64,000 nucleotides of DNA from Candidatus Bathyarchaeota archaeon (GTDB taxonomy: Archaea; Thermoproteota; Bathyarchaeia; Bathyarchaeales; Bathycorpusculaceae): positions 1 through 64,000 of the forward strand of contig JAOZIH010000002.1 of assembly GCA_026014545.1 (NCBI GenBank). Direction: 5' to 3'. Each line of letters starts with the position of its first letter. The first letter of the stretch is position 1. The notes under the pieces are model-generated. The model had not been told where the DNA came from. It ran no database searches and was given only the letters and a program-made list of their open reading frames with translations. A program made the position numbers and the translations under genes. Of the stretch, positions 10,373 through 38,623 are shown one piece after another.

Positions 10373-12775
10373 TTACCCTGCTATTTTTCCGCGGATGGTG
10401 ATTACAGCGAAGATGGCTGCGATTGCGGCTACCAATGAGAGGACAACCGCTACCCAAACAGCCATTGAGACGCCTTCAGCTGCTGCCTTGGCGGCTTCAG
10501 CTGCGGTGGTGGCGTCGTCGATTGCGCTGGCTGCGCTGTCAGCTGACGACTTTGCAGCGTTTGCTGCGCTGGCTGCTGATTGGGCAGCACTTGTGGCGCC
10601 AGAAACTGCGCTAACTGCGTTGTCAGCTGATGCTTTTGCGGCGTCAGCAGCAGCCTTTGCGGCGTCGGCGGATGCTTTAGCGGAGTCAGCAGCGCTCTTT
10701 GCGGAGTTAGCTGCTGAGGCTGCGCTGGATGCAGCTCCGCTGATGCCTGAGACTTCACTGCGGATGGCGTTTAGCTGGTTGTTTATGGCTGAAAGGTCTA
10801 ATGCGCTAACTTTGCCCTCTAGTGAGGTAATCTTGTCGCTTAATGCGTTAATTTGGGCTTGTACTGAAGCTAATGTGGGTTTCTCGACTACTGTGAAGAG
10901 GTTTGTCGCTGCAACTTTGCTTGCAGTGTCGTAGGCTGTGAAGTTCCAGGAGCCTAGGGTGGCGTCATCTGTGAGTTTAGGTGGAAGTATCGTCCAGCTG
11001 AGGTAGTTGAATCCTGTTATTGGGTCTGTGACTACGTCACTTGCTTGTATTGTATATTGCCAGAAGGTGATTTTTGATGGGTCTGTGATTACTAGCTTAT
11101 AGCCGGTTATTGACTCTGTTGATTTAACGTAGATGCTTATTTGGTCGCCTTGCACGTAAGTTGTTGCTCGTGTGCGGATTTCAACTACTGGCGCGGTAAG
11201 TGTGAACAGGGCTGTTGCAGTTACTCCTCTAGCGTCTGTGGCGGTTACATTGTAGGCGCCAACTGCGACGTTGGGAACTTTGAAGGTTGCGTAGAAGCTG
11301 CCGTCAGAAGCTGTGTACACGGATGATGGTGTTGTGCTCATGGTTGTAGTGTCAAAGGTTATTGTTATCTTAGAGTTGCTTGTGAACCATGTGCCTGTAA
11401 CGCCCACGGTAGTGTCAACGTAGCCTAACTTGGGAGACAGCGTAATCTTCGCTGTTTCGACAACCATAAAGTTAGCCCAGGCACTGTTTGGCGTAGAAGC
11501 GGTGTCTGTTGCCAGAACTTGGTAGTATGTTCCGGGAGCTGTGGGATCAGCTACTGTCGGCACAGTAAAGGTTACTGTGAAGGTGCCGTCTGTAGCAACT
11601 GGTGCGTCATTAACTACGGTGACATAGTTTGTTCCGGTAGGTGCAGCCATAGGTGGAGTTTGGGATGGATTCATGTACCATAGGACATCAACTGTTTCTC
11701 CGGCTGCAAAGCCTCTGCCCTTAACGGTTACTGTTGAGCCTCTCAGTCCAGAGGAAGGTGTCAATGTGAGCGTTGATTTAACCACAGTGACAGACCAAGT
11801 AGCCGTGTTCCCCTTGCCGTCAATCGCAAGTACGGTTAACATTCCAGTGGATGCGGTAGTAGGCACTTGAAGGGATTCTGAAAATCCTCCAAGTTCGCTT
11901 GAAACGGTTGCTACGGATGCCAAAGCTTTAGTCGCGTTATAGAATGTGTATGTTGCGTTTACGAACAGTGTTCCCGGCAGCGCCCAATTCCAGCTTAGGG
12001 CGACTGCGCCAGTTACGTAGTCGATTGTGCCGCTTCCACTAACAGCAGTAGTGTTACCATCTGTATAGTTCAATTTGAGCGCGCCTTTGCCATCATCAAC
12101 GAAGCCTAAGTAGCCTACGGTACTGCCTGTGGAGTTCGTGACGTTCATCATCACACTGTTGGGTTTTATTGGTTTCTTGGATAGAACTCCGCTGCCAAGT
12201 TGGCTTCCCCATGAACCGCTAACAGTTTCGTTATTTACTGGGTCCTCGATTAATGCGCCGTACAAGAGGATGTTGACGTCTTTTGAGCCTGCGAAGCCTG
12301 AGCCAAAAACGCTTATAGTGTCGCCTGGAAGCACGCTAAAGGGCATCGCCATTAGAAATGCGTTAACAGTGAAATCAGCATAAGCTGATTTAGAGGGGTT
12401 TTCAACATCTCTGGCGATGATCTTATGGACACCGTTGACAGCTTGAGGAACCGTAAAGGTGATGACTGCAGTTGTACCTACTGCGTAGTCTTCAGCTACG
12501 TAACCAGCTTTTCCATCCCAGTCTTTAATTTGATCCCAGTAGACTTTAACCAAGCCACCGGGCGTTGCGTCGATCACGGTTATCCTTATTTTTGTTCCCA
12601 CGGATGCCGCAGGATTGGTTGTAATATCAGTCCATACAAATGTCTGAGGATCTTGTGATTCAATTTTGCTTATGCTAAAGGTTTGAGCGCTTGCTAGTGG
12701 CACTGCAGCGACTATCATTGAGAGTGTAAGCAATGCGGTGATGAGCAGGGATAGTGTTTTCTTGCTTTTTTGCAT
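10373..12775 (-). CDS. S-layer-like secreted protein: Ig/IPT domains, alanine heptad stalk and C-terminal anchor
   Basis: I place the start at 12775, giving 800 residues and a signal peptide MQKSKKTLSLLITALLTLS ending near ASAQT; the AGGAG motif ten bases before supports it over a longer frame beginning at 12847. The body holds several Ig-like domains, including IPT/TIG-type stretches such as LTLTPSSGLRGSTVTVKG and repeated GxYNVTATDxxG endings. The last 170 residues change character: a short heptad region (ALSDKITSLEGKVSAL), then about twelve consecutive alanine-rich heptads, then a single membrane helix ending RGKIAG. This is the architecture of a stalk that holds a surface layer above the membrane. 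A strong TATA element lies upstream. Confidence 0.8.
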   Translation of the reverse strand: MQKSKKTLSLLITALLTLSMIVAAVPLASAQTFSISKIESQDPQTFVWTDITTNPAASVGTKIRITVIDATPGGLVKVYWDQIKDWDGKAGYVAEDYAVGTTAVITFTVPQAVNGVHKIIARDVENPSKSAYADFTVNAFLMAMPFSVLPGDTISVFGSGFAGSKDVNILLYGALIEDPVNNETVSGSWGSQLGSGVLSKKPIKPNSVMMNVTNSTGSTVGYLGFVDDGKGALKLNYTDGNTTAVSGSGTIDYVTGAVALSWNWALPGTLFVNATYTFYNATKALASVATVSSELGGFSESLQVPTTASTGMLTVLAIDGKGNTATWSVTVVKSTLTLTPSSGLRGSTVTVKGRGFAAGETVDVLWYMNPSQTPPMAAPTGTNYVTVVNDAPVATDGTFTVTFTVPTVADPTAPGTYYQVLATDTASTPNSAWANFMVVETAKITLSPKLGYVDTTVGVTGTWFTSNSKITITFDTTTMSTTPSSVYTASDGSFYATFKVPNVAVGAYNVTATDARGVTATALFTLTAPVVEIRTRATTYVQGDQISIYVKSTESITGYKLVITDPSKITFWQYTIQASDVVTDPITGFNYLSWTILPPKLTDDATLGSWNFTAYDTASKVAATNLFTVVEKPTLASVQAQINALSDKITSLEGKVSALDLSAINNQLNAIRSEVSGISGAASSAASAANSAKSAADSAKASADAAKAAADAAKASADNAVSAVSGATSAAQSAASAANAAKSSADSAASAIDDATTAAEAAKAAAEGVSMAVWVAVVLSLVAAIAAIFAVITIRGKIAG
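10440..10770 (-). repeat. Alanine/serine heptad-coding repeat tract (21-base periodicity)
   Basis: The 3-prime part of the S-layer-like gene encodes successive seven-residue units such as SAANSAK, SAADSAK, ASADAAK and AAADAAK, giving an imperfect 21-base DNA repeat. Ala occupies the core positions, with Lys/Asp/Ser outside, which predicts a tightly packed Ala-coil. The periodicity also creates a long alanine-rich open frame on the opposite strand that should not be taken as a gene. Confidence 0.75.
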
Positions 12776-24392: not shown

Positions 24393-25568
24393 CTAACCTT
24401 TTTGTTTATCCGCGTCTTCTGATTTAAGTCGCAGCATAAGCCTATTTTTAACGCTTCGAATCGCGGTGCAAAGCACGCTGAAGGCGTGGCGGCTTCTTTC
24501 CACCAACATGAATCTCTGAACGAAGCCTATTAAGAGTATATACAGCAGAATCCAGATAATCGAGTACATTTCGCCGTAGGTGTTATGGAAAAGCATTCCA
24601 GCATCGCGTCCCTGGTCAAGCATGATAAGAAGGATTGAGATTACTCTGGAGACGTTTACGAAGAAAGTGCCGAATAAGCCTATAACGAAGTAGGCTAATT
24701 TGCGGAAGGCTGAAAGCTCTGCTTTTTTGAAGAAAACAAGGATTATAACGGTGTAAAGCAGTAGGCTTTGAACGCCCGCGCATGCCCAAGCGATTACAAC
24801 GCTCGCAGATTGTCCACCCATGCTAATCGATAGAGATGGAAGATAAGAGTCGAAGGCGTATACTGGAAAAGTTAACCGCACCGCATACCCGAGCAAATCA
24901 AGGAGCGCTGCGGCCACGGCTGCTGTTGGAAGCGCAAACGCTTGGAGAGGGCGAAAAACGCCGAATGGATAAACCGTGTCAAACATGTATGCCACAGCTA
25001 TCCCGCCGAGCAGAGCGAAGGAAATTGAGAAGTATTTGAGCCCCCTTGTTTTGTAAGTCAGCAGCACGGCGCTGATGAAAAACAATGTGAATACTACGTA
25101 CTCGCATGATATTGGCCACTGTAAGTATAGGAAGTCCCACGGCTGATTTTCCGGCGTAATGCTGCGTATTCCAACGTCACGACCAAACTGGAGCAGAGCC
25201 AGGTCTAAGCCGAGAAAGTTTATGGCGATGACGTAAAACGTGGGGATTAGCGCGCAGATAAGCGAGGCTAGGATTATGGAGCGGTTTTTCGGAGTTTCGT
25301 CGGCGATGCTGTTCCAGTCGAGGGCTGATTCAATCAAGAAAAGCCATATAAACACGAGCAGAAACATTCTGCCTTTCCATGTTAATTCGAAAAGGAAATT
25401 TTGATTGAAAAACACGTTAGACCAGCTTTCGAAGGCGTTTGTTTCAGCGTTGTAAACGTAGTTGTAGCCCTCGAGATTACAGTAATCCAGGAAGAGCAGC
25501 AGCAATATTGGGATGGCAATGCAAACCAGCAGTGTTATGTGAAACCATGATTTCTTCAATGCAGCCAC
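24393..25568 (-). CDS. Archaeosortase/exosortase family membrane transpeptidase
   Basis: A 391-residue polytopic protein with about nine membrane helices. The three invariant catalytic residues of the exosortase/archaeosortase superfamily are in place: Cys263 in AWACAGVQSL, Arg308 in NVSRVISILL and His328 in FHNTYGEMYS. These enzymes cut secreted proteins near a C-terminal motif-helix-basic tail and pass them to a lipid. The N-terminal extension with an extracytoplasmic NLEGYNYVYNAE loop is unusual for the core family. It diverges from a PGF-pre-PGF-like protein and two glycosyltransferases, and two candidate substrates with IPE-helix-RKRPK ends lie at 33.2-35.1 kb. Confidence 0.8.
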   Translation of the reverse strand: MAALKKSWFHITLLVCIAIPILLLLFLDYCNLEGYNYVYNAETNAFESWSNVFFNQNFLFELTWKGRMFLLVFIWLFLIESALDWNSIADETPKNRSIILASLICALIPTFYVIAINFLGLDLALLQFGRDVGIRSITPENQPWDFLYLQWPISCEYVVFTLFFISAVLLTYKTRGLKYFSISFALLGGIAVAYMFDTVYPFGVFRPLQAFALPTAAVAAALLDLLGYAVRLTFPVYAFDSYLPSLSISMGGQSASVVIAWACAGVQSLLLYTVIILVFFKKAELSAFRKLAYFVIGLFGTFFVNVSRVISILLIMLDQGRDAGMLFHNTYGEMYSIIWILLYILLIGFVQRFMLVERSRHAFSVLCTAIRSVKNRLMLRLKSEDADKQKG

Positions 25569-25720
25569 ATCTTAGTAAATTAGGCTTTAGCTAATTTAAT
25601 TCGTTGGTTATAGCAATAAAATTTGCTGTTTAATTGAAAACTGCGGGCGGAGCAGCGTGCCAAGCAGAGGTTTTAAATAGAGTTGCATTTAACTACGGAA
25701 CCAAGGGCAGCTAGGAACGT

Positions 25721-26488
25721 GTGGTTTTAATGCCCGGAAAGCATAGGCTACGTGCAGCCTCTGCAAGCATGCTTCAAGCGGCGGGAAAAAATAGGATAGA
25801 GAATAGAAAACTTTGCATCCGGCTAAAATCGACAGTCGCCGCGGTTATCGTACTTTTAGTTTTGCTGATTCTTTGTGAAACCGCAAGTGCGGATACATTT
25901 TTCCCACAGCTTTATCAGCATACAATTGTCGAGGAAACCGTGGCTTCTGAAGCTTCAACCACGCCGTCAAACGTCTTTTTTATAGATTTCACTAAATATG
26001 CGGCTCAGCCGTTTGTGAGAAACATGACAGTAGAGCTAAACGAGCCAGTTGCTTACTTTAGTTGCGCATTGAATGTTGTAAGCGAAAAACCGTTTTATGC
26101 GGATATACCAGACGTCGAAAATGTTTCTCGATATTATACTATTAGATTTTTGAGTGAAACAACCAGCAAAATTGCTAATGTAACATTGTTCTTCGCCATA
26201 GAAAAAGACGAGATATATAAGAAGGCGGAAGAAGCCACTTTTACGCTTTACCGTTATGATAGAAGTGAAATTTACGAGTGCCCAATAGAGAAGATTGCAG
26301 AAGATGATGACTTTCTATACTTTAAGACGACAACGAAAGGATACTCGTTCATAGCATTCGTTCGAACAACAGCTACGGGGGAGCCTTGGTGGCCTACTAC
26401 GGCGGTAATCGCAATTGTAATGCTTATGACTTCAACAGCGGTAATTGTTTACAAACGGCTCAGAACAGATGGGCGCGGAGAACGGTGA
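25721..26488 (+). CDS. PGF-pre-PGF-like secreted membrane protein
   Basis: A 255-residue protein with a signal/membrane segment (TVAAVIVLLVLLILCETASA) near residues 38-58, a beta-rich outside domain and a C-terminal helix followed by YKRLRTDGRGER. The domain reads like the PGF-pre-PGF family: NMTVELNEPV, NVTLFFAIEKDEI, FTLYRYDRSEIYECPI, then a closing TKGYSFIAFVRT. Members of that family usually accompany archaeosortase systems. Start may be GTG 25721 or ATG 25730. It diverges from the archaeosortase and runs into a GT-C glycosyltransferase by a short overlap. The family call is by pattern and moderate. Confidence 0.55.
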   Translation: MVLMPGKHRLRAASASMLQAAGKNRIENRKLCIRLKSTVAAVIVLLVLLILCETASADTFFPQLYQHTIVEETVASEASTTPSNVFFIDFTKYAAQPFVRNMTVELNEPVAYFSCALNVVSEKPFYADIPDVENVSRYYTIRFLSETTSKIANVTLFFAIEKDEIYKKAEEATFTLYRYDRSEIYECPIEKIAEDDDFLYFKTTTKGYSFIAFVRTTATGEPWWPTTAVIAIVMLMTSTAVIVYKRLRTDGRGER

Positions 26489-29400
26489 AGAAATCGAAAT
26501 GGAATCCAACGCGATGGCGGAAGCAGACGAGAAACAGGCAAAAGCGAATTTAGCGGTGCCGCTGGCAGTTCTAACACTTCTCGCATTTGCGTGGGTTGTT
26601 TACGTTTACGCGAATCAAACATGGTTGGAAACGCTGGAGCAAGTTGCAGATTGGATAGCCAAGCCCGTAATCAATTTTGGACCACTTCAAGTTGGAGGGA
26701 TACCACATGCGGCTTTGGGTACCGTGGAGATTTTAGTTCTCGGCGTCATCTCAGTGCACGTGCTATTGCCCAAAGAGAAAGACACGCTTGTCAAGTTGCT
26801 AAGCGCGCTTGGGTTGGGAGTCGGATTAACTGGGTTAATAACTATCATCTTAGGAATCTTTGGAGCCCTGTTTCAACTTCACTTGAACGCTGCAATCCTG
26901 CTGCTCTGCATTGGCTTTCTACTTGCAGTCTTTCGCAGGCATAAAGGGCAGATTGAATCTTCAGTATGCGTGTTCTTAAAAGCGCGGTTAGCCATCATCA
27001 AACTTAGACCAGGCAACCTTAGGTTTTGGTTGCTGCCCTGCATTGCCATCGGCGTGATGTTTGCTTTATGCTTCTATCATGCCCTGTTTACTGTTGTTAT
27101 GCATTGGGATGCTACTGTTTACCATGCAGTGATGGCTGTAATCATGTACAATAATCACGGCATCCCCGTGATAGCTGGACCGTCTATTGGCATACAGATG
27201 AGTGCAAACTTTCCGCCGCTGTTCTCCGCATTGGGTGCCTTCTATTACATCCAGATGGGTTTAATTGAAGATTTCTACCTTAGGGCTATTCCTCCCGTGA
27301 TGGGTGTACTGACAGCTTTGGCAACGTATAAGATTGGGGAAACCCTTGCCGGCAAAAGATATGGCCTAATAGCAGCATTGCTTCTTGCGATGACGCCGCT
27401 GTTTTTCAGGTATTCCATTTATGCAACAAGCTATTCCACATTGACCTTCTTCGGCACAGCAGCAGTCATGTTCATGTTTCTTGCCATGAAAAAAGGAGAA
27501 AATAGATACTGGGCCATGTGCGGCGTCTTCTATGGCTTTGCACTGTTAACATCATATATAGCCATGTATCTTGCACCGTTTTTCCTCATCACCTTGACTG
27601 CAGTATTCATCAAAAATAAGCAGCGTATCAAACTGAGCGCAAAGATTTTCGTGCTGCTATTTTTGCCCGCTTTGCTCGTTGGCGGAGCATGGTATATCAG
27701 AAATTTTGTCCTACTCGGAAACCCAGTTTACCCAAATGCCTACACAGTGCTCGGCGGCATAAACATTGACCCGTTGATTATGGAAACAACTGTTAATGGC
27801 ATAAAATGGTCAGCTACGCGAAGCCTATTTGGCGGCGACGTAGCATTACTAGATAAAATTGACATATTGCTCACTTTTAGAATCCATTTTCCAGCAATTT
27901 CCCTGTTAACGATTCTTGGCGTCGCGCTGGTTCCAACCCAGAACAGGAAGTTTTGGCTGCTGTTGGCATGGCCCTTGATTCTGGTCGCGTTTATACTCAG
28001 CGGGTTAACATGGGGGTTTCCGAGGCACATTGTATTCGCAACTCCTGGCTTTGCGCTCTTAAGTGCTCTACCCCTCGCAAAAGCTCTGGAGCACTGCGAG
28101 AAGTATGACAAAAACGTGATGATGCAGGCTAAAGATGCGCTGGGAAAAATGCGAAAAAGGCTGAAGCTTCCCCGCAAAAGTGATTTACTTAGAATTTCCA
28201 TCGTGATAATTCTAATCGTCGCCTTCATATTTCCCAGTTTAACGTTTTGTATGGGTGGCAAAATATTCATGGAAAACCTTAACGACAAGCCGCCTTACAA
28301 TTTCTTATGGTTCCTAGAAAATCCTAATGCAGAAAAGTGGACGGCGCTGAGCCTTTCTTACCCCGAAGCCGCAGCGTGGAAATGGCTAAATGAGCATCTG
28401 AACGAAGGCGAAAAAGTCGGCACCATCGAAAACCGAGTCTACTACGTGAAAAACTGCAGTAACGACTACTTCTTCTACCTGGACGGCTGGGAAGCACGCT
28501 ACCTCTACAACATGACTGAGATGACGGCTATACTGCGGTACCTGCAAAGCGAGAACGTGCGGTATATTTTGGATGTGGATTGGGCGCGTGAACATGGACA
28601 CTTCGATGTGCTGCCGCTGGCAAGGTTTTTGGGAACACCGTTTTTCCCCAGAATACCATACGGCGGAAGCCAAAAACTCTACAAAGTCGGCCCGCTTGTA
28701 AATTCGCCGATAACAGAAAATTCAGCTTTGCCCACAGCCATTAATGAGAAAGGTTGGACTGAGCCGCAGTTAGTTAACGGAGTACTTGCGCAGTCGGTTA
28801 TTGCAGGAAGCAACGCACCACGATTTTTTGTGGCAACACCGAATTTAACATGCGTAGAGATAACTTACCTCGACGCTGGAGTAGACAAGTTAAGCATATA
28901 CCTTTACAACCCATACTCCGAGGCATGGTTTGAATACTCATTCATTGAGAAAACTGACACGAAAGAGTGGAAGACACACAAGTTCCTTGTGCCAATCAAC
29001 AAGGAAGGGTATGCGGAATTTGGGCTCCACTCGTACACTGGAAATTTCACGATAAGCAGGATAGAAGCCAAGCCCGTTGAAGCTGAAGGAAAAGCGTCAT
29101 TATACTCGCTGGAGGGAAAAATAACCAGTAACACTTGGCCGCAGACGTTGATGGTTTATCTGCCAATTTTAGGCGAAAACCAAACCGTTACCGTTCAGAC
29201 TGAAACGTTTGGGAATAAAGTGTGCATAGAAATCTTTGAAGGTGTCATTCAGCCGTGGGAAACCACTGAGTGGTGGATGCACCGCGAGTTAGCAACGCGA
29301 ACGCCAGACTCGATAACTCAGGGAGAAGTTAACCCATCACTGGTTTGGAAAGTTGAGAAATCAGGGTTGTATACGCTGGTCGTAGTTTTGAGAGAAGAAA

Positions 29401-29516
29401 ATGTTGAAGATGCAAGCGTGAATCTCCAGATAAACATCGGCGGAGCAAGACAAAGCGAGCCAGTAGAGAAAATTAGAGAAGGAGGAGCAGGAATACGCGT
29501 GATCGTGATGCGCTAG
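26469..29516 (+). CDS. GT-C membrane glycosyltransferase-like protein (first copy)
   Basis: About 1,015 residues: a short cytoplasmic tail, some twelve to fourteen membrane helices over residues 30-600, then a large extracytoplasmic domain. The first outer loop has MHWDATVYHAVMA, placing an Asp where GT-C enzymes (PMT/ArnT/Pgl types) keep their catalytic acid, followed by IAGPSIGIQMSANFPP. These enzymes use polyprenyl-phosphate sugars to glycosylate proteins or lipids outside the cell. I set the start at ATG 26469, overlapping the preceding gene by 20 bases; ATG 26496 is also possible. The next gene is a clear paralogue. Sugar and acceptor are unknown. Confidence 0.72.
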   Translation: MGAENGEEIEMESNAMAEADEKQAKANLAVPLAVLTLLAFAWVVYVYANQTWLETLEQVADWIAKPVINFGPLQVGGIPHAALGTVEILVLGVISVHVLLPKEKDTLVKLLSALGLGVGLTGLITIILGIFGALFQLHLNAAILLLCIGFLLAVFRRHKGQIESSVCVFLKARLAIIKLRPGNLRFWLLPCIAIGVMFALCFYHALFTVVMHWDATVYHAVMAVIMYNNHGIPVIAGPSIGIQMSANFPPLFSALGAFYYIQMGLIEDFYLRAIPPVMGVLTALATYKIGETLAGKRYGLIAALLLAMTPLFFRYSIYATSYSTLTFFGTAAVMFMFLAMKKGENRYWAMCGVFYGFALLTSYIAMYLAPFFLITLTAVFIKNKQRIKLSAKIFVLLFLPALLVGGAWYIRNFVLLGNPVYPNAYTVLGGINIDPLIMETTVNGIKWSATRSLFGGDVALLDKIDILLTFRIHFPAISLLTILGVALVPTQNRKFWLLLAWPLILVAFILSGLTWGFPRHIVFATPGFALLSALPLAKALEHCEKYDKNVMMQAKDALGKMRKRLKLPRKSDLLRISIVIILIVAFIFPSLTFCMGGKIFMENLNDKPPYNFLWFLENPNAEKWTALSLSYPEAAAWKWLNEHLNEGEKVGTIENRVYYVKNCSNDYFFYLDGWEARYLYNMTEMTAILRYLQSENVRYILDVDWAREHGHFDVLPLARFLGTPFFPRIPYGGSQKLYKVGPLVNSPITENSALPTAINEKGWTEPQLVNGVLAQSVIAGSNAPRFFVATPNLTCVEITYLDAGVDKLSIYLYNPYSEAWFEYSFIEKTDTKEWKTHKFLVPINKEGYAEFGLHSYTGNFTISRIEAKPVEAEGKASLYSLEGKITSNTWPQTLMVYLPILGENQTVTVQTETFGNKVCIEIFEGVIQPWETTEWWMHRELATRTPDSITQGEVNPSLVWKVEKSGLYTLVVVLREENVEDASVNLQINIGGARQSEPVEKIREGGAGIRVIVMR

Positions 29517-29542
29517 TTATTATTTGGATTACGATAATTCTG

Positions 29543-31894
29543 ATGATTGGAAGCATTTTCAGCCTTATCTATTATCAACCGCCAGAATTCACTTTACCGA
29601 ATATATTTCACGCTTCGATTGCAACTGTTCCCTTTGATTGGGGCTGGCTGGGTTTCGTTTTTATAATTGCTAACGGCTTTTTGCTCTCTTGCGGCATCGC
29701 TAAAAATGGATTAGACACCGCAGAAAGGCTGCTTTCCGCCATTGGCTTGGGATTCGGAATTACAATCGTAGCGATGATTTTGATTGGAATTTTATGGGAA
29801 ATCTCTCTGTTAACAGTGCTGCTCGTACAAATAAGCCTATTTATTGTTCTATTATATGCGGCGCTACGTCGTGGACTAAAGCCGAGCATCAACGTGAAGC
29901 TGGAAAATTTTTCTATGCCAAGATTCAGCCATATCGAAGCGGCAGTGCTTGCTGTGATTGCCGCATATGCCTGCATTGCAACGTATCAGACCTTGGCTTA
30001 TCCAGCGGTAGAGTGGGATTCGCTGGCTTATGGTGTTAACTACGCGAAAATCATATTTGAAAATGGCAGAATCCCGTTGATTGCAGGGCCATCGATTGGT
30101 TTGGAAATGAGCGCAAGTTACCCGCCGGGAACGCAGCTGCTTGCCGTTTACCTCTATGCGCTTGCTGGAGCTGCTGATGATTTTTATTTTAGGATTTTGC
30201 AGCCAATTTTTGGTTTAGCAGCGATAGCGGTCACGTACAAATTTGCAGCTGTTATCACCAGAAGCCGCACCGCCTCAGTTTTCGCCACATTTATACTAGC
30301 GAGCATACCTACTTTTTGGGAGCTTTTTATTCACGAAACTTATCTCATGTGCTTAACTTTTATGCTGACGATGGCCGCGTTCTTCTTCTTCAAAGCCTAT
30401 AATGCAGAAGTAGCTGAAGCTGGAAAATATGAAGTCGCTGGGACAGTGTTTTGCTGTTTCGCGGCGCTTACGAGCTACATAGGTCTAGTCGCATTCGGTT
30501 TGTTGCTTCTTTACGCCGTAAATAAGCGTTTATCTGCGAAGCGCTTCGGTTTGCTAGTCGCCTTGGCGGCGCTGCTTGTTTTGCCATGGTACATGCGGAA
30601 TTTTCTGCTGCTTGGAAACCCTGTTTTCCCATTTCTCAGCATAGGCAACCACTTAGACCCACTGCTCTTGAGTTCCACAATGCAGCATTTCAGGAACTGG
30701 TCCACTGTGCCATTCTTCGGTTTGATCAGCACAGCGGCTAAAATAGGCACTGCAGCACTATTTTTAGCCATCATTTACCTGCATTTTGCCAAGCCAAAGC
30801 AGTTCACGCTGATTTTTCCCTGCTACCTATTGCTGGCTGGCGTCGCGATCATGGCAGTTCACATTCCATTCATGCGCTATCTCATCATCGCGCTGCCTGC
30901 CTTAGCGGTTATCTTCTCTTTAAGCATTAAAACACTTCTAACAAAACCAAACAATGCGAAACGGGCAACCTCGATTATCTTCATAGCGTTCCTGCTTATT
31001 TCAAGCATAGCGATTTTGCCATGCATAAATTCCTTTAAGCCAGCGCCTTCACGCGGCAACGACAAATGGAGCTACCTAGCGCAGATATTCGAAGAAGCAG
31101 ACGCATGGAAATGGATAAATGAGAACACGCCGCCAACCGCGAGAATAGCGACCTATGACATAAAGGAGTACTACATTGAACGCGACATCTTCACGCTTGA
31201 CGGCATCGAGGCAGCACCGCTTTACAGAATGAATATGATTGAAGATGCAATAAATTTCCTAAAGGAAAGAAACGTGACCTATATTCTCAGCGTGCCTTGG
31301 GCGGCGCCACTTGACACGAGGATGCCGCCGGCGTACAAATGGTGCGTGCTCACGAGATACTTGGGCGATCCGCGTTATTTGCCGCCTGTCTATGCTGGAT
31401 TGAATGGCACCGCGGTTTATCATGTTGGCCCGCTAGAGGAAGAAGCGGTGTACGCGCTGTTTGCAGAGCAAAACTTTGCTCCGCCGCTGAAGCACGTGAC
31501 CGTTAATTTGACAGTAACAAACGCCACGGCGCTGCCCAGCGCCAAATTGCACATGCCCATCCCCTGTGATTACAGGGAAGGCCTAATGATGGTTTCAGTT
31601 AACAGCGCGAATCACTCAGCCAGCATTGAATTGTGGCAAGGGATAATTCCAGAAGTGGTCACTAACCCTTCGGGAACATATAAGCCCTTAAAGCAGTGGC
31701 CCGAGACGTCTGCGAATTATTCTGGTGCTGAGGATCCGTCGTTTGTTTGGCAGATAAATAAGTGGGGATACTTCACACTCTTTGTGGTTGACCGAGAGGA
31801 AACTTTCACAGAAAGCTTCAACGTCACGGTGGACATAAGATTTTACAATTATTGGGATGTGAAGTCACTCTTCGCGTCTGAACGACCGTTATAA
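29543..31894 (+). CDS. GT-C membrane glycosyltransferase-like protein (second copy)
   Basis: A 783-residue paralogue of the preceding gene. The signature loop reads VEWDSLAYGVNYAKI then IAGPSIGLEMSASYPPG, matching the first copy residue for residue at the key positions, and the C-terminal outer domain ends with a similar FVWQINKWGYFTLFVV strand. The ATG at 29543 cuts into what looks like the first membrane helix; the open frame continues upstream (LVIIWITIIL) to 29477 without an ATG, GTG or TTG, so a non-standard start is possible. It lies 26 bases after the first copy and is presumably co-transcribed. Confidence 0.7.
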   Translation: MIGSIFSLIYYQPPEFTLPNIFHASIATVPFDWGWLGFVFIIANGFLLSCGIAKNGLDTAERLLSAIGLGFGITIVAMILIGILWEISLLTVLLVQISLFIVLLYAALRRGLKPSINVKLENFSMPRFSHIEAAVLAVIAAYACIATYQTLAYPAVEWDSLAYGVNYAKIIFENGRIPLIAGPSIGLEMSASYPPGTQLLAVYLYALAGAADDFYFRILQPIFGLAAIAVTYKFAAVITRSRTASVFATFILASIPTFWELFIHETYLMCLTFMLTMAAFFFFKAYNAEVAEAGKYEVAGTVFCCFAALTSYIGLVAFGLLLLYAVNKRLSAKRFGLLVALAALLVLPWYMRNFLLLGNPVFPFLSIGNHLDPLLLSSTMQHFRNWSTVPFFGLISTAAKIGTAALFLAIIYLHFAKPKQFTLIFPCYLLLAGVAIMAVHIPFMRYLIIALPALAVIFSLSIKTLLTKPNNAKRATSIIFIAFLLISSIAILPCINSFKPAPSRGNDKWSYLAQIFEEADAWKWINENTPPTARIATYDIKEYYIERDIFTLDGIEAAPLYRMNMIEDAINFLKERNVTYILSVPWAAPLDTRMPPAYKWCVLTRYLGDPRYLPPVYAGLNGTAVYHVGPLEEEAVYALFAEQNFAPPLKHVTVNLTVTNATALPSAKLHMPIPCDYREGLMMVSVNSANHSASIELWQGIIPEVVTNPSGTYKPLKQWPETSANYSGAEDPSFVWQINKWGYFTLFVVDREETFTESFNVTVDIRFYNYWDVKSLFASERPL

Positions 31895-31993
31895 GCCACA
31901 AAAAAATGGGTTAAATCGCATTTGAAAAAGGAGGCTGGTTTTCAGGAATAGCCAAGCTTTGCCGCAAATATTTGCTCTGCGAGGGAAAACGGG

Positions 31994-33037
31994 CTATACA
32001 GGGCGTGTTGACCTGTCGCCTGAAGTTACTTCATGCATGGACTCTTGGACAGCAGGCGCCAAGCCCGCTTTGAGCAGGGGACTAATGCCGATTATGTCTG
32101 TTCCAGTGAATAAGGCGCGGGTTATCAATGCGAACGCCACAAGCTTCGGGTTAACGGCGGAAAGAGGCAGCCCAAGAAGCAATTGAAGGAATAGAACATA
32201 GCCTGCTTCTTGCACGCCCAGCCCTGCGATTGTAACGGGGATATAAGTCAAAGCTGAGGCGAAGGCTGCTATGAAGATGAAGTCGATCAGATGAAGCGAA
32301 AGATAATACCATAAGCCGTTAAAAATCAAGTACAGCGCGGTGGCATGGGCGATTACAGATAATAATATCAGAGCGGCAACGAATATCAGCGAGTACCGTA
32401 TTTTTCGGCCTTCCCTCTGAACATTGCTGAATACCGCAGTAAACTTGCTTAATCGTTTACCCAAAACAGGTATTCTCTCGAGCTTGGCAACTAGTTTTGA
32501 GAAGCGCTTATCCCACATGATCAGCAGCAGAATCGCGCCGGCAACGAGTAGAACGATTATGCCCACGAGTAGCGCGTTGGTAATTTCCGCAGGCAGAGAC
32601 AGATAGCCTGCAAAGTAGCCTAAACCTATCAGGCAGATGGCCACTTTCACAAAGGAGTTTACGCCTCCAGTGGCGAGGACACCAGTCATGCCTTGCTCGA
32701 CGGGGATGCTGGCTAACTGCTTCAGGAAAACAGGTGTGAGGAAGTAGCCGGAGCGGACGGGCGTTACGTCACTTAGCAGTTGCCCAGCGAAACTTGCCAT
32801 TATCATATGCCGCAGCGGTGCATCCGGGTTAGAGCGTCTCAGGGTGACGCAGAGTGCAAGCGCCACGAAGGTGGACGCTGTTATGAAGAAGGCTACTGCG
32901 CCGATGAGGTTTACGGGGTTGAACTGCAGGATTGTTGCGAATACTTCGCCTGAATTTGCTATCTGGAGCAGCCAGAGTAGTATGGCGACGCCTACGATAA
33001 GTTGGATTATGACTTTTATGCGGCTGAGTTTTGTCAT
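31994..33037 (-). CDS. Lysylphosphatidylglycerol synthase TM-type (UPF0104) membrane protein, second copy
   Basis: A 347-residue polytopic protein with the same landmarks as the copy at 1720: QLLSDVTPVRSGYFLTPVFL near residue 88 and SALTYIPVTIAGLGVQEAGY near residue 270, with about eight membrane helices. The family is found with archaeal N-glycosylation and S-layer genes and probably moves lipid-linked intermediates. It lies between the two GT-C enzymes, with which it converges, and the two candidate archaeosortase substrates, so a role in the local surface-glycan pathway is likely. Confidence 0.75.
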   Translation of the reverse strand: MTKLSRIKVIIQLIVGVAILLWLLQIANSGEVFATILQFNPVNLIGAVAFFITASTFVALALCVTLRRSNPDAPLRHMIMASFAGQLLSDVTPVRSGYFLTPVFLKQLASIPVEQGMTGVLATGGVNSFVKVAICLIGLGYFAGYLSLPAEITNALLVGIIVLLVAGAILLLIMWDKRFSKLVAKLERIPVLGKRLSKFTAVFSNVQREGRKIRYSLIFVAALILLSVIAHATALYLIFNGLWYYLSLHLIDFIFIAAFASALTYIPVTIAGLGVQEAGYVLFLQLLLGLPLSAVNPKLVAFALITRALFTGTDIIGISPLLKAGLAPAVQESMHEVTSGDRSTRPV

Positions 33038-33241
33038 TTAGTTTCCTCATTTTGGTCGCAGCATAAATTTAAGCTTTAAAGTTGCATGCAAAAAATTTTT
33101 GTTTTATTCATCTTTTTAGGCAATACAAACATTTAATTGTTCACTCTTGTTAAATTTCACGACGCAGAGGTTAGCAGTAAAAGAAAAAAAGAGTAAACTA
33201 TCTTCCCGGTTCGGCTCGACTTCACCGCAAATAGCTGACGG

Positions 33242-34048
33242 CTACAGTTTAATGGTGCCGTAAGTTGGGGTTTTTGGGCGCTTCCGTAAGCAATAGAAGC
33301 TGACAGCAAACGCAGCACAAGTAAGCAAGACCACAACGCCAACGCCGAAGCCTTCAGGAATTGGCTCCGTTGAATATCCGGCGACTACACCCCAGGTATT
33401 TGGAACGTTCGCAGAGCTGTTAGGTGCCCACGCTGCCAGAGTGCTTGTGCTTGCGTCGTAAGCCGCAATTCTCATCCCCGTTGGCGGCGGATTTGGAATC
33501 TGAACTTGGCCACTTGTTTTGCTTGTATCAACTATTTCCAGAATCCAGTGGGGCGTGCTATTCCATGGCGAGGCGCTAATTGTGTTATTCCATCTTATTT
33601 CTCCTGCTTCAGGAGTAAATTCCTGCCAGCCAGTGCCTGTCCCTTTATACACCTTCAAGGTGGTGTGGCCGATAATTTCTATTTTAAAGTCATCAGTGTC
33701 AGGTGTTGTGCCGCCATCGTTGCCGTCGTCAAAGCAGATTTGCCAATAATCTCCTGCGTCGTTAGTGTTGTCAGTGAAGATTTCAATAATCCACTCTACG
33801 CCTAAATTGGTGAAGTCCTGTATGTTGTATCCGAATTTTCCTGTGGCATTGCCTGTTAGGTCAGTGGCAGGAGTGTCTGTCCATTCGTCATTACTGGTCC
33901 ATTTTCCGTCAACTGTTGCTGTATTGACGCTTGGGTACTCTGTAATTGAGTAGGCGGGATTGCCTGCTTTGGAAACGCCGGCGATTATAGGGAGTAGTAA
34001 ACTGCAGACAAAGAGCATGGAAAGTGCAGAACGCAAAAGTTTGTTCAT
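33242..34048 (-). CDS. Secreted CBM9/DOMON-like protein with archaeosortase-type C-terminus (copy A)
   Basis: I choose ATG 34048 (268 residues), which has an AGGGGA motif just before it and opens with the signal peptide MNKLLRSALSMLFVCSLLLP. The mature part begins with a carbohydrate-binding-9/DOMON-like pattern (VDGKWTSNDEW, EIFTDNTNDAGDYWQICFD, PHWILEIVD). The C-terminus is tripartite: the IPEGFG motif, a hydrophobic helix, and FYCLRKRPK. That is the form of an archaeosortase sorting signal, and copy B has the same tail. A shared promoter element lies 53 bases upstream. Ligand and role are unknown. Confidence 0.72.
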   Translation of the reverse strand: MNKLLRSALSMLFVCSLLLPIIAGVSKAGNPAYSITEYPSVNTATVDGKWTSNDEWTDTPATDLTGNATGKFGYNIQDFTNLGVEWIIEIFTDNTNDAGDYWQICFDDGNDGGTTPDTDDFKIEIIGHTTLKVYKGTGTGWQEFTPEAGEIRWNNTISASPWNSTPHWILEIVDTSKTSGQVQIPNPPPTGMRIAAYDASTSTLAAWAPNSSANVPNTWGVVAGYSTEPIPEGFGVGVVVLLTCAAFAVSFYCLRKRPKTPTYGTIKL

Positions 34049-34100
34049 TCCCCTTTCTTCTCCTTTAATTTGGCTAATTAGTTTATTTAACTCGTTAGCC

Positions 34101-34113
34101 TTAAAAATTTTTC
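34101..34113 (-). promoter_or_regulatory. Promoter element shared by both CBM9-like genes (copy A)
   Basis: The plus strand reads TTAGCCTTAAAAATTTTTC, 53 bases before the copy A ATG. Almost the same string occurs at the same distance before copy B, so it is probably their common TATA/BRE region. Confidence 0.5.
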
Positions 34114-34312
34114 CTATATCATAAAGAAGGCGACGTTTTATGGTGCATTCGAAAAAGTGTAATAAAATAACTTTCACTGGAAAATAACGAAGGGGGATAA
34201 CAAGATGAGCAAATGTCATGTGTTGCCTGACTTTTGCTTAAATAGCATCTGCTTCGATTATTCCACAACTAATCGAGTTACAAAGATAAAAAGGGCGATT
34301 GAAGTGAAAGGC

Positions 34313-35116
34313 TCACATACAGGAGTGTGTTTGGCCACCTGTTTTGATGGAAGCGACACTTTCGATTTTTGGTCGTTTTCGCAGGAAGTAGAAGCTAACT
34401 ACAGCCGCAGTGGATAGTAGCAGCACCACGACGGCGATGCTGAGCGTTTCTGGGATGACTCCTGAAACATAATTTTGAACTCCCCAGCGGGCTGGTTCAT
34501 CTCTGGGAGTGGGCGGCCACGCTACAAGTTTGTCAGTGGTTTTGTCATATGCTGCCAATCTAAAGTTCCAGGTAATACCGGCTCCGACATCTGGCTTATT
34601 AAACCTGAGTTCCAAAATCCAGTGAGGCGTACTATTTGTCGGCGAAGCACTTAGCGAATTAGCCCATACTATGGAGGCTGGAGGAGTAGCCACTGTCCAA
34701 CCTGTCCCATTTCCTTGATACACTATTAGATTAGTGTGATTTACAATATCTATTCTATAATCACCGGTCTGTGGAACAGTACCACCGCTTTGGTCACCAT
34801 CAATGCACATTTGCCAGTAGTCACCCACATCGTTGGTGGTGTCATCGAGAAACTCGACAAGCCAGGTATCGTATACCTCTGACATCGAAACAAATTCCCA
34901 TACACTTCTGAAAACAACACTGGTACCTATCAGGGTAGGTTCGCCATTCAAGGTCCATTCAGTATCATTAGTCCATTTTCCATCAATGGTAATCGCGTTG
35001 TTAGGATTGTAGTCTATTCTTGTGTAGCCTGGTTCGGCGGCTTTGATGGGCCCAGCTTTTACTAGCAGTAGACTGCACAACGCCAAAACACAGATTGTCA
35101 TAAAAGTTTTGCGCAT
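34313..35116 (-). CDS. Secreted CBM9/DOMON-like protein with archaeosortase-type C-terminus (copy B)
   Basis: A 267-residue paralogue of copy A. It opens with the signal peptide MRKTFMTICVLALCSLLLV, has GGAGTGAT before the ATG, and repeats the same fold markers: IDGKWTNDTEW, EFLDDTTNDVGDYWQMCID, and PHWILELRF. Its tail is IPETLS, a hydrophobic helix with VVVLLL, then FYFLRKRPK and a polar extension ending HSCM. The extension after RKRPK is longer than in copy A. The matching tail and promoter argue that both are handled by the same sorting enzyme. No catalytic residues are visible. Confidence 0.72.
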   Translation of the reverse strand: MRKTFMTICVLALCSLLLVKAGPIKAAEPGYTRIDYNPNNAITIDGKWTNDTEWTLNGEPTLIGTSVVFRSVWEFVSMSEVYDTWLVEFLDDTTNDVGDYWQMCIDGDQSGGTVPQTGDYRIDIVNHTNLIVYQGNGTGWTVATPPASIVWANSLSASPTNSTPHWILELRFNKPDVGAGITWNFRLAAYDKTTDKLVAWPPTPRDEPARWGVQNYVSGVIPETLSIAVVVLLLSTAAVVSFYFLRKRPKIESVASIKTGGQTHSCM

Positions 35117-37573: not shown

Positions 37574-38623
37574 CTACCCCATCCTTTCGGATGGGGCTTC
37601 CAGCATAGGCTGGTTTAGGGCTGGTTCACAGGCAGCCCCGTGGAGAGGCATGTAGCCTAACCACCTCTCAAATTTTTTAGCGATGTTTACGGCTCCGTTT
37701 AAGTCAGCGTTGTATTCTCCGCAGTGAGGACATAGGAATAGTCCTTGAGTTTTGCGTTTTCCCTCACACCCGCAGACGTGGCATGTTTGGCTTGTGTAGG
37801 ATTCACTTGTAGTTATCACTGGGATACCTACGAGCATAGCCTTGTATTCGACCATTTTTGTTAGGTGATAGAAGGGCATGTTGCTAACTATGCGGTTGAA
37901 ACGTTTGCCTTTACCGTTCGCTCGCTGTCTAATCCCAGTGAGGTCTCCCAAGACTATGCAAGAGCTGGATGCAAAAGCGAGGCTGACTATCCTTTTGCTG
38001 ATTCGGTGGAGGATGGCGTCAACCACCCTTCTCTCCTTCCTTCCAACCTTTTTTACAACTTGGGTTAGACCTCTCTCCTGAAGTCTTCTGCGGAGCCACG
38101 CGTAATGGCGTCTCACTCCTCTAATTTCCCTGCCGAGGAAAAGGGTTTTCATTACGGTTCCATTCTGCCAAAGCACCGCAGTGGCAGCGAACCGCTCACC
38201 CAAATCAATGGCAAGGATAGAGGAGCATTCTCGCATTGGTGGGGCTGGAAACTCGAAGGTTAACATGGCGATATAGCGGTCTTTCCTCTTGACTATTTTA
38301 CTCTCGCAGAGTTTTCCTTGTGGGAATTCTCGATGAGTTTTCACTGGAACTTTGATTCCGCCTCTAACGCCATACACTGGAATTTTCAAGAACCAGAACG
38401 CCTTAGCCTTCCTGAGGTTAATCAGGTCGTTTCTCAAACTGAGAGGATACTCTTTTAACTTCACTTTTTTATAGTATCTTAATGCTTGCTGTTTGTTTGC
38501 CGAATACAACGGGACAGCCTTGTCTCCTCTGAGAAACCTCTGAAGGTTGGAATATTCTCTATCCAACAGCTCTTTTTTCCTTTGAGTCAGCCCAACAATG
38601 CCTGCTTGGATAGTCAACTTCAT
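37574..38623 (-). CDS. tnpB: TnpB RNA-guided nuclease-like protein
   Basis: A 349-residue TnpB. RuvC-I is present as LAIDLGERFAAT with Asp140. The zinc ribbon is CHVC (281, 284) and CPHC (298, 301), and RuvC-III is NADLNGAVNIAKK with Asp307. The RuvC-II site reads CIVLGDLTGIR, with Gly226 where most TnpBs have Glu; Glu259 in MVEYKAML is a candidate replacement, as described for rearranged TnpB/Fanzor groups. The N-terminus is shorter than ISDra2 TnpB (408 residues). TnpB guide RNA normally comes from the 3-prime end of this gene and the right end, so its guide would read into guaA. Confidence 0.85.
   Translation of the reverse strand: MKLTIQAGIVGLTQRKKELLDREYSNLQRFLRGDKAVPLYSANKQQALRYYKKVKLKEYPLSLRNDLINLRKAKAFWFLKIPVYGVRGGIKVPVKTHREFPQGKLCESKIVKRKDRYIAMLTFEFPAPPMRECSSILAIDLGERFAATAVLWQNGTVMKTLFLGREIRGVRRHYAWLRRRLQERGLTQVVKKVGRKERRVVDAILHRISKRIVSLAFASSSCIVLGDLTGIRQRANGKGKRFNRIVSNMPFYHLTKMVEYKAMLVGIPVITTSESYTSQTCHVCGCEGKRKTQGLFLCPHCGEYNADLNGAVNIAKKFERWLGYMPLHGAACEPALNQPMLEAPSERMG
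37577..37596. repeat. Right-end hairpin of the TnpB element
   Basis: A perfect 8-base-pair stem with a TTTC loop at the tnpB 3-prime end. In TnpB systems this region forms the scaffold of the guide RNA. Confidence 0.65.

Follow-up and report, generated by a model that had tools for sequence, protein, structure and literature searches.

We analysed a 64,000-nucleotide stretch (the window) of a bathyarchaeal genome, G000, whose 1.86-Mb assembly is 98% complete; judged by the window archaeosortase, its nearest named relative is SG8-32-3 (MCG-1 archaeon, phylum Bathyarchaeota). All seven genes that an earlier note had placed at 24393-35116 were found at about the positions it gave. An archaeosortase (24393-25568, minus strand) lies next to a secreted protein with a C-terminal membrane anchor and a PGF-pre-PGF domain (25721-26488, plus), two GT-C glycosyltransferases (26445-29516 and 29543-31894, both plus), a flippase-like membrane protein of the LPG_synthase_TM/UPF0104 type (31994-33037, minus) and two secreted paralogues, the candidate substrates 1 (33242-34048, minus) and 2 (34313-35116, minus). 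Elsewhere in the window, 37574-38623 (minus) encodes a TnpB-like protein with a Cas12f1-like TNB domain (PF07282, 71 bits).

The archaeosortase scores over the curated cut-offs of both TIGR04178 (44 versus 23 bits, E=2e-11) and PF09721 (33 versus 25.7 bits, E=5e-8), and its C263, R308 and H328 are invariant in a nine-member alignment of the window enzyme with eight relatives, which bears out the family and the residues claimed earlier. An order-wide search returned two groups of archaeosortases: in one, the alignment to the window enzyme spans the full length; in the second, common group, which is thaumarchaeosortase-like, it begins only near residue 59, with 30-43% identity. Members of the window-type clade share a conserved N-terminal stretch of ~60 residues, which cannot be aligned with the common enzyme. 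A maximum-likelihood tree recovers this distinct bathyarchaeal clade ('ArtS') as monophyletic and apart from the common bathyarchaeal enzyme with support of 100/100, and divides it into two subclades, the second made up of the enzymes of G040, G056 and G114. A distant sequence from G011 joins the clade on a very long branch; its position is uncertain and it was left out of the counts. A window-type enzyme also occurs, in the gene order of the bathyarchaeal locus L087, on a contig labelled 'Caldiserica bacterium UBA646' (DBOM01000073.1, L084) that is probably mis-binned.

Archaeosortases as a kind were reportedly described by Haft and colleagues. Thaumarchaeosortase (TIGR04297) belongs to the same superfamily, and a PE motif is common to the tails; the window enzyme matches this model at 39.6 bits, far short of the 250-bit cut-off, and thus falls outside the thaumarchaeosortase/PEFG-CTERM family. 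The tails differ as well, those of the window reading PEG or PET and those of the clade PE[GSTN]-LSS, whereas thaumarchaeosortase-type tails read PEF(G). Profile similarity to archaeosortase C (TIGR03762, 35 bits versus a cut-off of 100) and to ArtF (TIGR04293, 23 versus 150 bits) is weak. With the ArtA/PGF-CTERM system the locus shares two features: the enzyme is a polytopic membrane protein carrying Cys and Arg, and the tail is tripartite, made up of motif, helix and basic end (PMC7157517, PMC9263693). ArtA of Haloferax volcanii requires Cys173, Arg214 and Arg253 (PMC9263693), whereas the window enzyme has His in the third position. Membership of ArtA/PGF-CTERM was rejected, as the enzyme gives no ArtA model match and the tails no PGF-CTERM match; a further difference is that the window locus contains no archaetidylserine synthase gene. 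The third conserved residue differs from that of ArtA in many exosortases too. Our literature searches found no experimental archaeosortase work in Bathyarchaeia and no paper naming thaumarchaeosortase, nor one naming exosortase together with PEFG-CTERM, and a PDB sequence search with the archaeosortase, the GT-C proteins and the substrates gave nothing useful.

Each candidate substrate consists of a signal peptide, a CBM9-like domain and a tail, EPIPEGFGVGVVVLLTCAAFAVSFYCLRKRPK in substrate 1 (33272-33367, minus) and GVIPETLSIAVVVLLLSTAAVVSFYFLRKRPK in substrate 2 (34367-34462, minus), and the two share 44% identity. The reading frame of substrate 1 extends to 34219 and is longer than the gene; alignment indicates that translation and the signal peptide begin at 34048, which is therefore probably the true start. 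The substrate domain is predicted to adopt a CBM9 fold (pLDDT 86; Foldseek probability 1.00, best E=7.5e-7), and the three best PDB matches of the model are all CBM9 (E 7.5e-7 to 2.4e-6). Identity to CBM9 modules of this fold (7nwn, 1i82) is just 12-14%, and sugar binding is putative.

Substrate homologues that adjoin the enzyme in relatives carry matching C-terminal ends. Over 27 tails the consensus is [DE]P[IV]PE[GS]L[TNS], a helix with a near-invariant LSS and then LRKR (in compact form, [DE]P[IV]PE[GS]L..LSS..LRKR), with a PE-to-RK spacing of 22 residues in most of them. As a test we built a tail profile from eight tails, all from distant genomes outside the window's subclade. Run against 7,988 ORFs, this profile recovered the remaining tails, those of the window among them (E 7e-6 and 9e-6), no unrelated match and no IPEF tail, in agreement with the initial description of two secreted paralogues ending in PE, a helix and RKRPK. 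Isolated tails exceeded the cut-off of none of the NCBIfam CTERM models, the best being Loki-CTERM at 14.6 versus 19.9 bits; the tail is thus distinct from PGF-CTERM, as had been proposed, and from every other catalogued NCBIfam CTERM model. Neither the enzyme clade nor the tail class matches a specific curated model. A genome-wide collection of such tails, which the earlier note had called for and which we made with profile and pattern searches, left the window pair as the only strong matches in G000, with a third that is marginal (E=0.006).

The tail also occurs on proteins without a CBM9-like domain, for example in G050, G065, G137 and G041, and is therefore a portable module. The CBM9-like domain in turn bears IPEF tails in G020, G089, G086, G146 and G101, and in G054 and G068 it ends in a Thr/Pro-rich stalk followed by a different helix. 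All of these genomes lack the window-type enzyme. Tails are thus swapped on homologous domains.

Co-occurrence of enzyme and tail was evaluated in 163 analysed genomes of the order. The enzyme clade is present in 12 (counting G073, whose copy an assembly gap interrupts), strong tails in 14 and both in 10, so that tails accompany the enzyme in 10 of 12 genomes and occur in 4 of the 151 that lack it (Fisher p = 2.3e-11, among related genomes). This strong association across relatives is what the archaeosortase reading had predicted; it is weaker at genus level (p=6e-4). Within genus g4, of at least 32 genomes, those with tails are exactly the four with the enzyme (chance 2.8e-5), and in genus g38 the two sets are again identical, at 3 of at least 8 genomes (chance 0.018), giving a combined chance of about 5e-7. 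Both subclades are represented among the g4 enzymes, and tails accompany each of them, a pattern suggestive of more than one joint acquisition of enzyme and tail. In nine of the ten genomes with both, the distance between the enzyme and the nearest tail gene is 36 bp to 9.5 kb, the exception being G050, where both tail genes are on other contigs than the enzyme; unlinked tail genes are present in G050, G065 and G121. A phylum sample of 398 genomes contained no such tail outside the order.

These patterns bear on a simpler explanation, that the tails do no more than anchor proteins in the membrane by their C-termini and that their tie to the archaeosortase is just neighbourhood and shared ancestry. 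A hydrophobic helix with basic residues would indeed fit simple anchoring, and some homologues end in unrelated helices behind the Thr/Pro stalk. Plain anchoring, however, would not lead one to expect a strict PE, a fixed 22-residue spacing and a mid-helix LSS to be kept across different protein families, nor the within-genus coincidence and the unlinked tail genes, and we regard it as very improbable.

The exceptions run in both directions. The earlier note had held that the tails should not occur apart from this archaeosortase, and four enzyme-less genomes (G097, G115, G041 and G137) do have them; an assembly gap is the probable cause in one of them, and another lineage shows signs of tail decay. 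In G137, 50 bp separate the tail gene from the end of its contig, at a guaA-asnC junction, the junction that precedes the archaeosortase locus in the window, so its enzyme may be in the gap. In G097 the second substrate (L107, G097:C1:205261-205943) is frame-broken and reads PISEN where PE is expected, which, with the enzyme absent, suggests signal decay, possibly after enzyme loss. The G041 assembly is a single contig, 90% complete. The enzyme occurs without tails in G161 (71% complete) and in G111. The G111 enzyme (L032/L083, JAGTQI010000019.1) occupies the slot of the common one, beside the same two neighbour genes and with a truncated flippase gene upstream, and looks like a replacement in place of the common thaumarchaeosortase-like enzyme. 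G111 retains IPEF tails, and the window-type enzyme may therefore also serve PEF tails.

This last genome raises the alternative that the window-type and common enzymes share one specificity for PE tails, PEF and PEG/PES alike, the LSS tail being a lineage-specific flavour. In keeping with it, the four genomes that have LSS tails without the window-type enzyme all have the common one, and both enzymes match the thaumarchaeosortase model. Yet the tail classes separate cleanly. Many genomes with the common enzyme and IPEF tails have zero LSS tails, and both tail types are found where both enzymes occur (G040, G050, G065, G121 and G134). G000, in which the common enzyme was not detected, has a single weak PEF match against many in relatives. 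On balance we consider shared specificity unlikely. Across the window's genus we found no copy of the common enzyme and hardly any PEF tails, the other single match being in G133. Of the 13 sites that an exact IPEF scan gave in G000, none makes a convincing tail, except perhaps for one case of 225 aa (L195). The position where the common enzyme normally sits is cut off by a contig end in G000; in the sister genome G133 it is intact and empty.

Archaeosortase-family proteins number two in G000, the second being a 677-residue XrtA-like exosortase on contig C33 (L136:8380-10413, minus). The adjoining genes (10499-11245 and 11191-12084) encode surface proteins whose tails read NNIPDVPLGT and NVVPELPLGT; G000 apparently has a further enzyme-tail pair here.

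The remaining genes of the locus also have the identities first proposed for them. The PGF-pre-PGF domain scores 34 bits against the TIGR04213 cut-off of 28; the protein has no PGF tail and was found near the enzyme only in G000 and its closest kin, G134 and SG8-32-3. The GT-C proteins are paralogues that can be aligned over 681 columns at 30%. The first matches PMT_2 and has an extracytoplasmic C-terminal domain and a WD motif in its first loop; the second has a GT-C fold by structure prediction at moderate model confidence (pLDDT 69), a fold shared by prediction with ArnT, DPY19, Pmt4 and AftD, with no sequence match to solved structures. The flippase-like protein reaches 83 bits against PF03706 (cut-off 33) and is slightly below the cut-off of TIGR00374 (42.6 versus 43.2 bits). 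We rejected the GT-C pair as the oligosaccharyltransferase (AglB/STT3) of the genome because a canonical STT3 is present at G000:C21; the pair falls under the STT3 cut-offs (TIGR04154, 30 versus 450 bits; PF02516, 19.6 versus 24.5 bits for the first protein). With the true oligosaccharyltransferase elsewhere in the genome, the pair is a separate machine.

Both GT-C genes and the flippase gene lie near the enzyme in five genomes (G000, G134, G065, G050 and G121). Epimerase-like and second glycosyltransferase-like genes join the locus in the last four, and in G121 profiles identify a nucleotide-sugar epimerase and a family-2 glycosyltransferase. In the surroundings of the enzyme that were covered, 20 kb in G040 and G056 and shorter contigs in G114 and G073, the GT-C and flippase genes were not seen. 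It is conceivable, at somewhat less than even odds in our judgement, that glycosyltransferases and flippase form an unrelated surface-glycan module adjacent by chance, which would explain their absence near the enzyme in the second subclade and would sit well with a separate STT3/AglB for N-glycosylation; chance adjacency accounts poorly for a group that stays near the enzyme in five genomes despite rearrangement. The link between sorting and glycosylation that had been put forward for the locus is plausible from gene neighbourhoods and conserved in part of the clade, being kept in these five genomes and not seen in the other four.

Taken together, we think it likely that the locus encodes an archaeosortase-type system dedicated to sorting two CBM9-like surface proteins. 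The two proteins would be exported by Sec and held in the membrane by the C-terminal helix and RKRPK. The polytopic archaeosortase, with its Cys, Arg and His, would recognise the PE[G/S/T/N]-LSS tail and cut near the PE motif, and the new C-terminus would be passed to an acceptor, which by analogy with Haloferax ArtA may be a lipid (PMC7157517); a lipid-acceptor gene is absent from the locus. Polyprenyl-phosphate sugars should be the donors of the GT-C enzymes, which, together with the flippase-like protein, probably add glycans to the two surface proteins themselves or to the acceptor, a role that we infer from synteny.

On sequence evidence, the window archaeosortase and its tail probably form a new pair within the known archaeosortase kind. 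The suggestion that the tail defines another sorting class holds insofar as it matches no catalogued CTERM model and co-occurs strongly with the enzyme; the pairing is not exclusive. A broader reading, to which we give even chances, is that of a new archaeosortase class with a PEG/PES-LSS tail, restricted to one bathyarchaeal order, standing beside the PEF and PLGT pairs in the cell and coupled to polyprenyl-phosphate-sugar glycosylation enzymes of its own; one CBM9-like surface protein family would then record, in nature, successive swaps of tails and replacements of enzymes. The locus offers a defined enzyme, a defined tag and, in a genome that is nearly complete, only two strong candidate substrates. 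Since relatives carry another tag on the same domain, the specificity of the tag can be tested by tail swaps.
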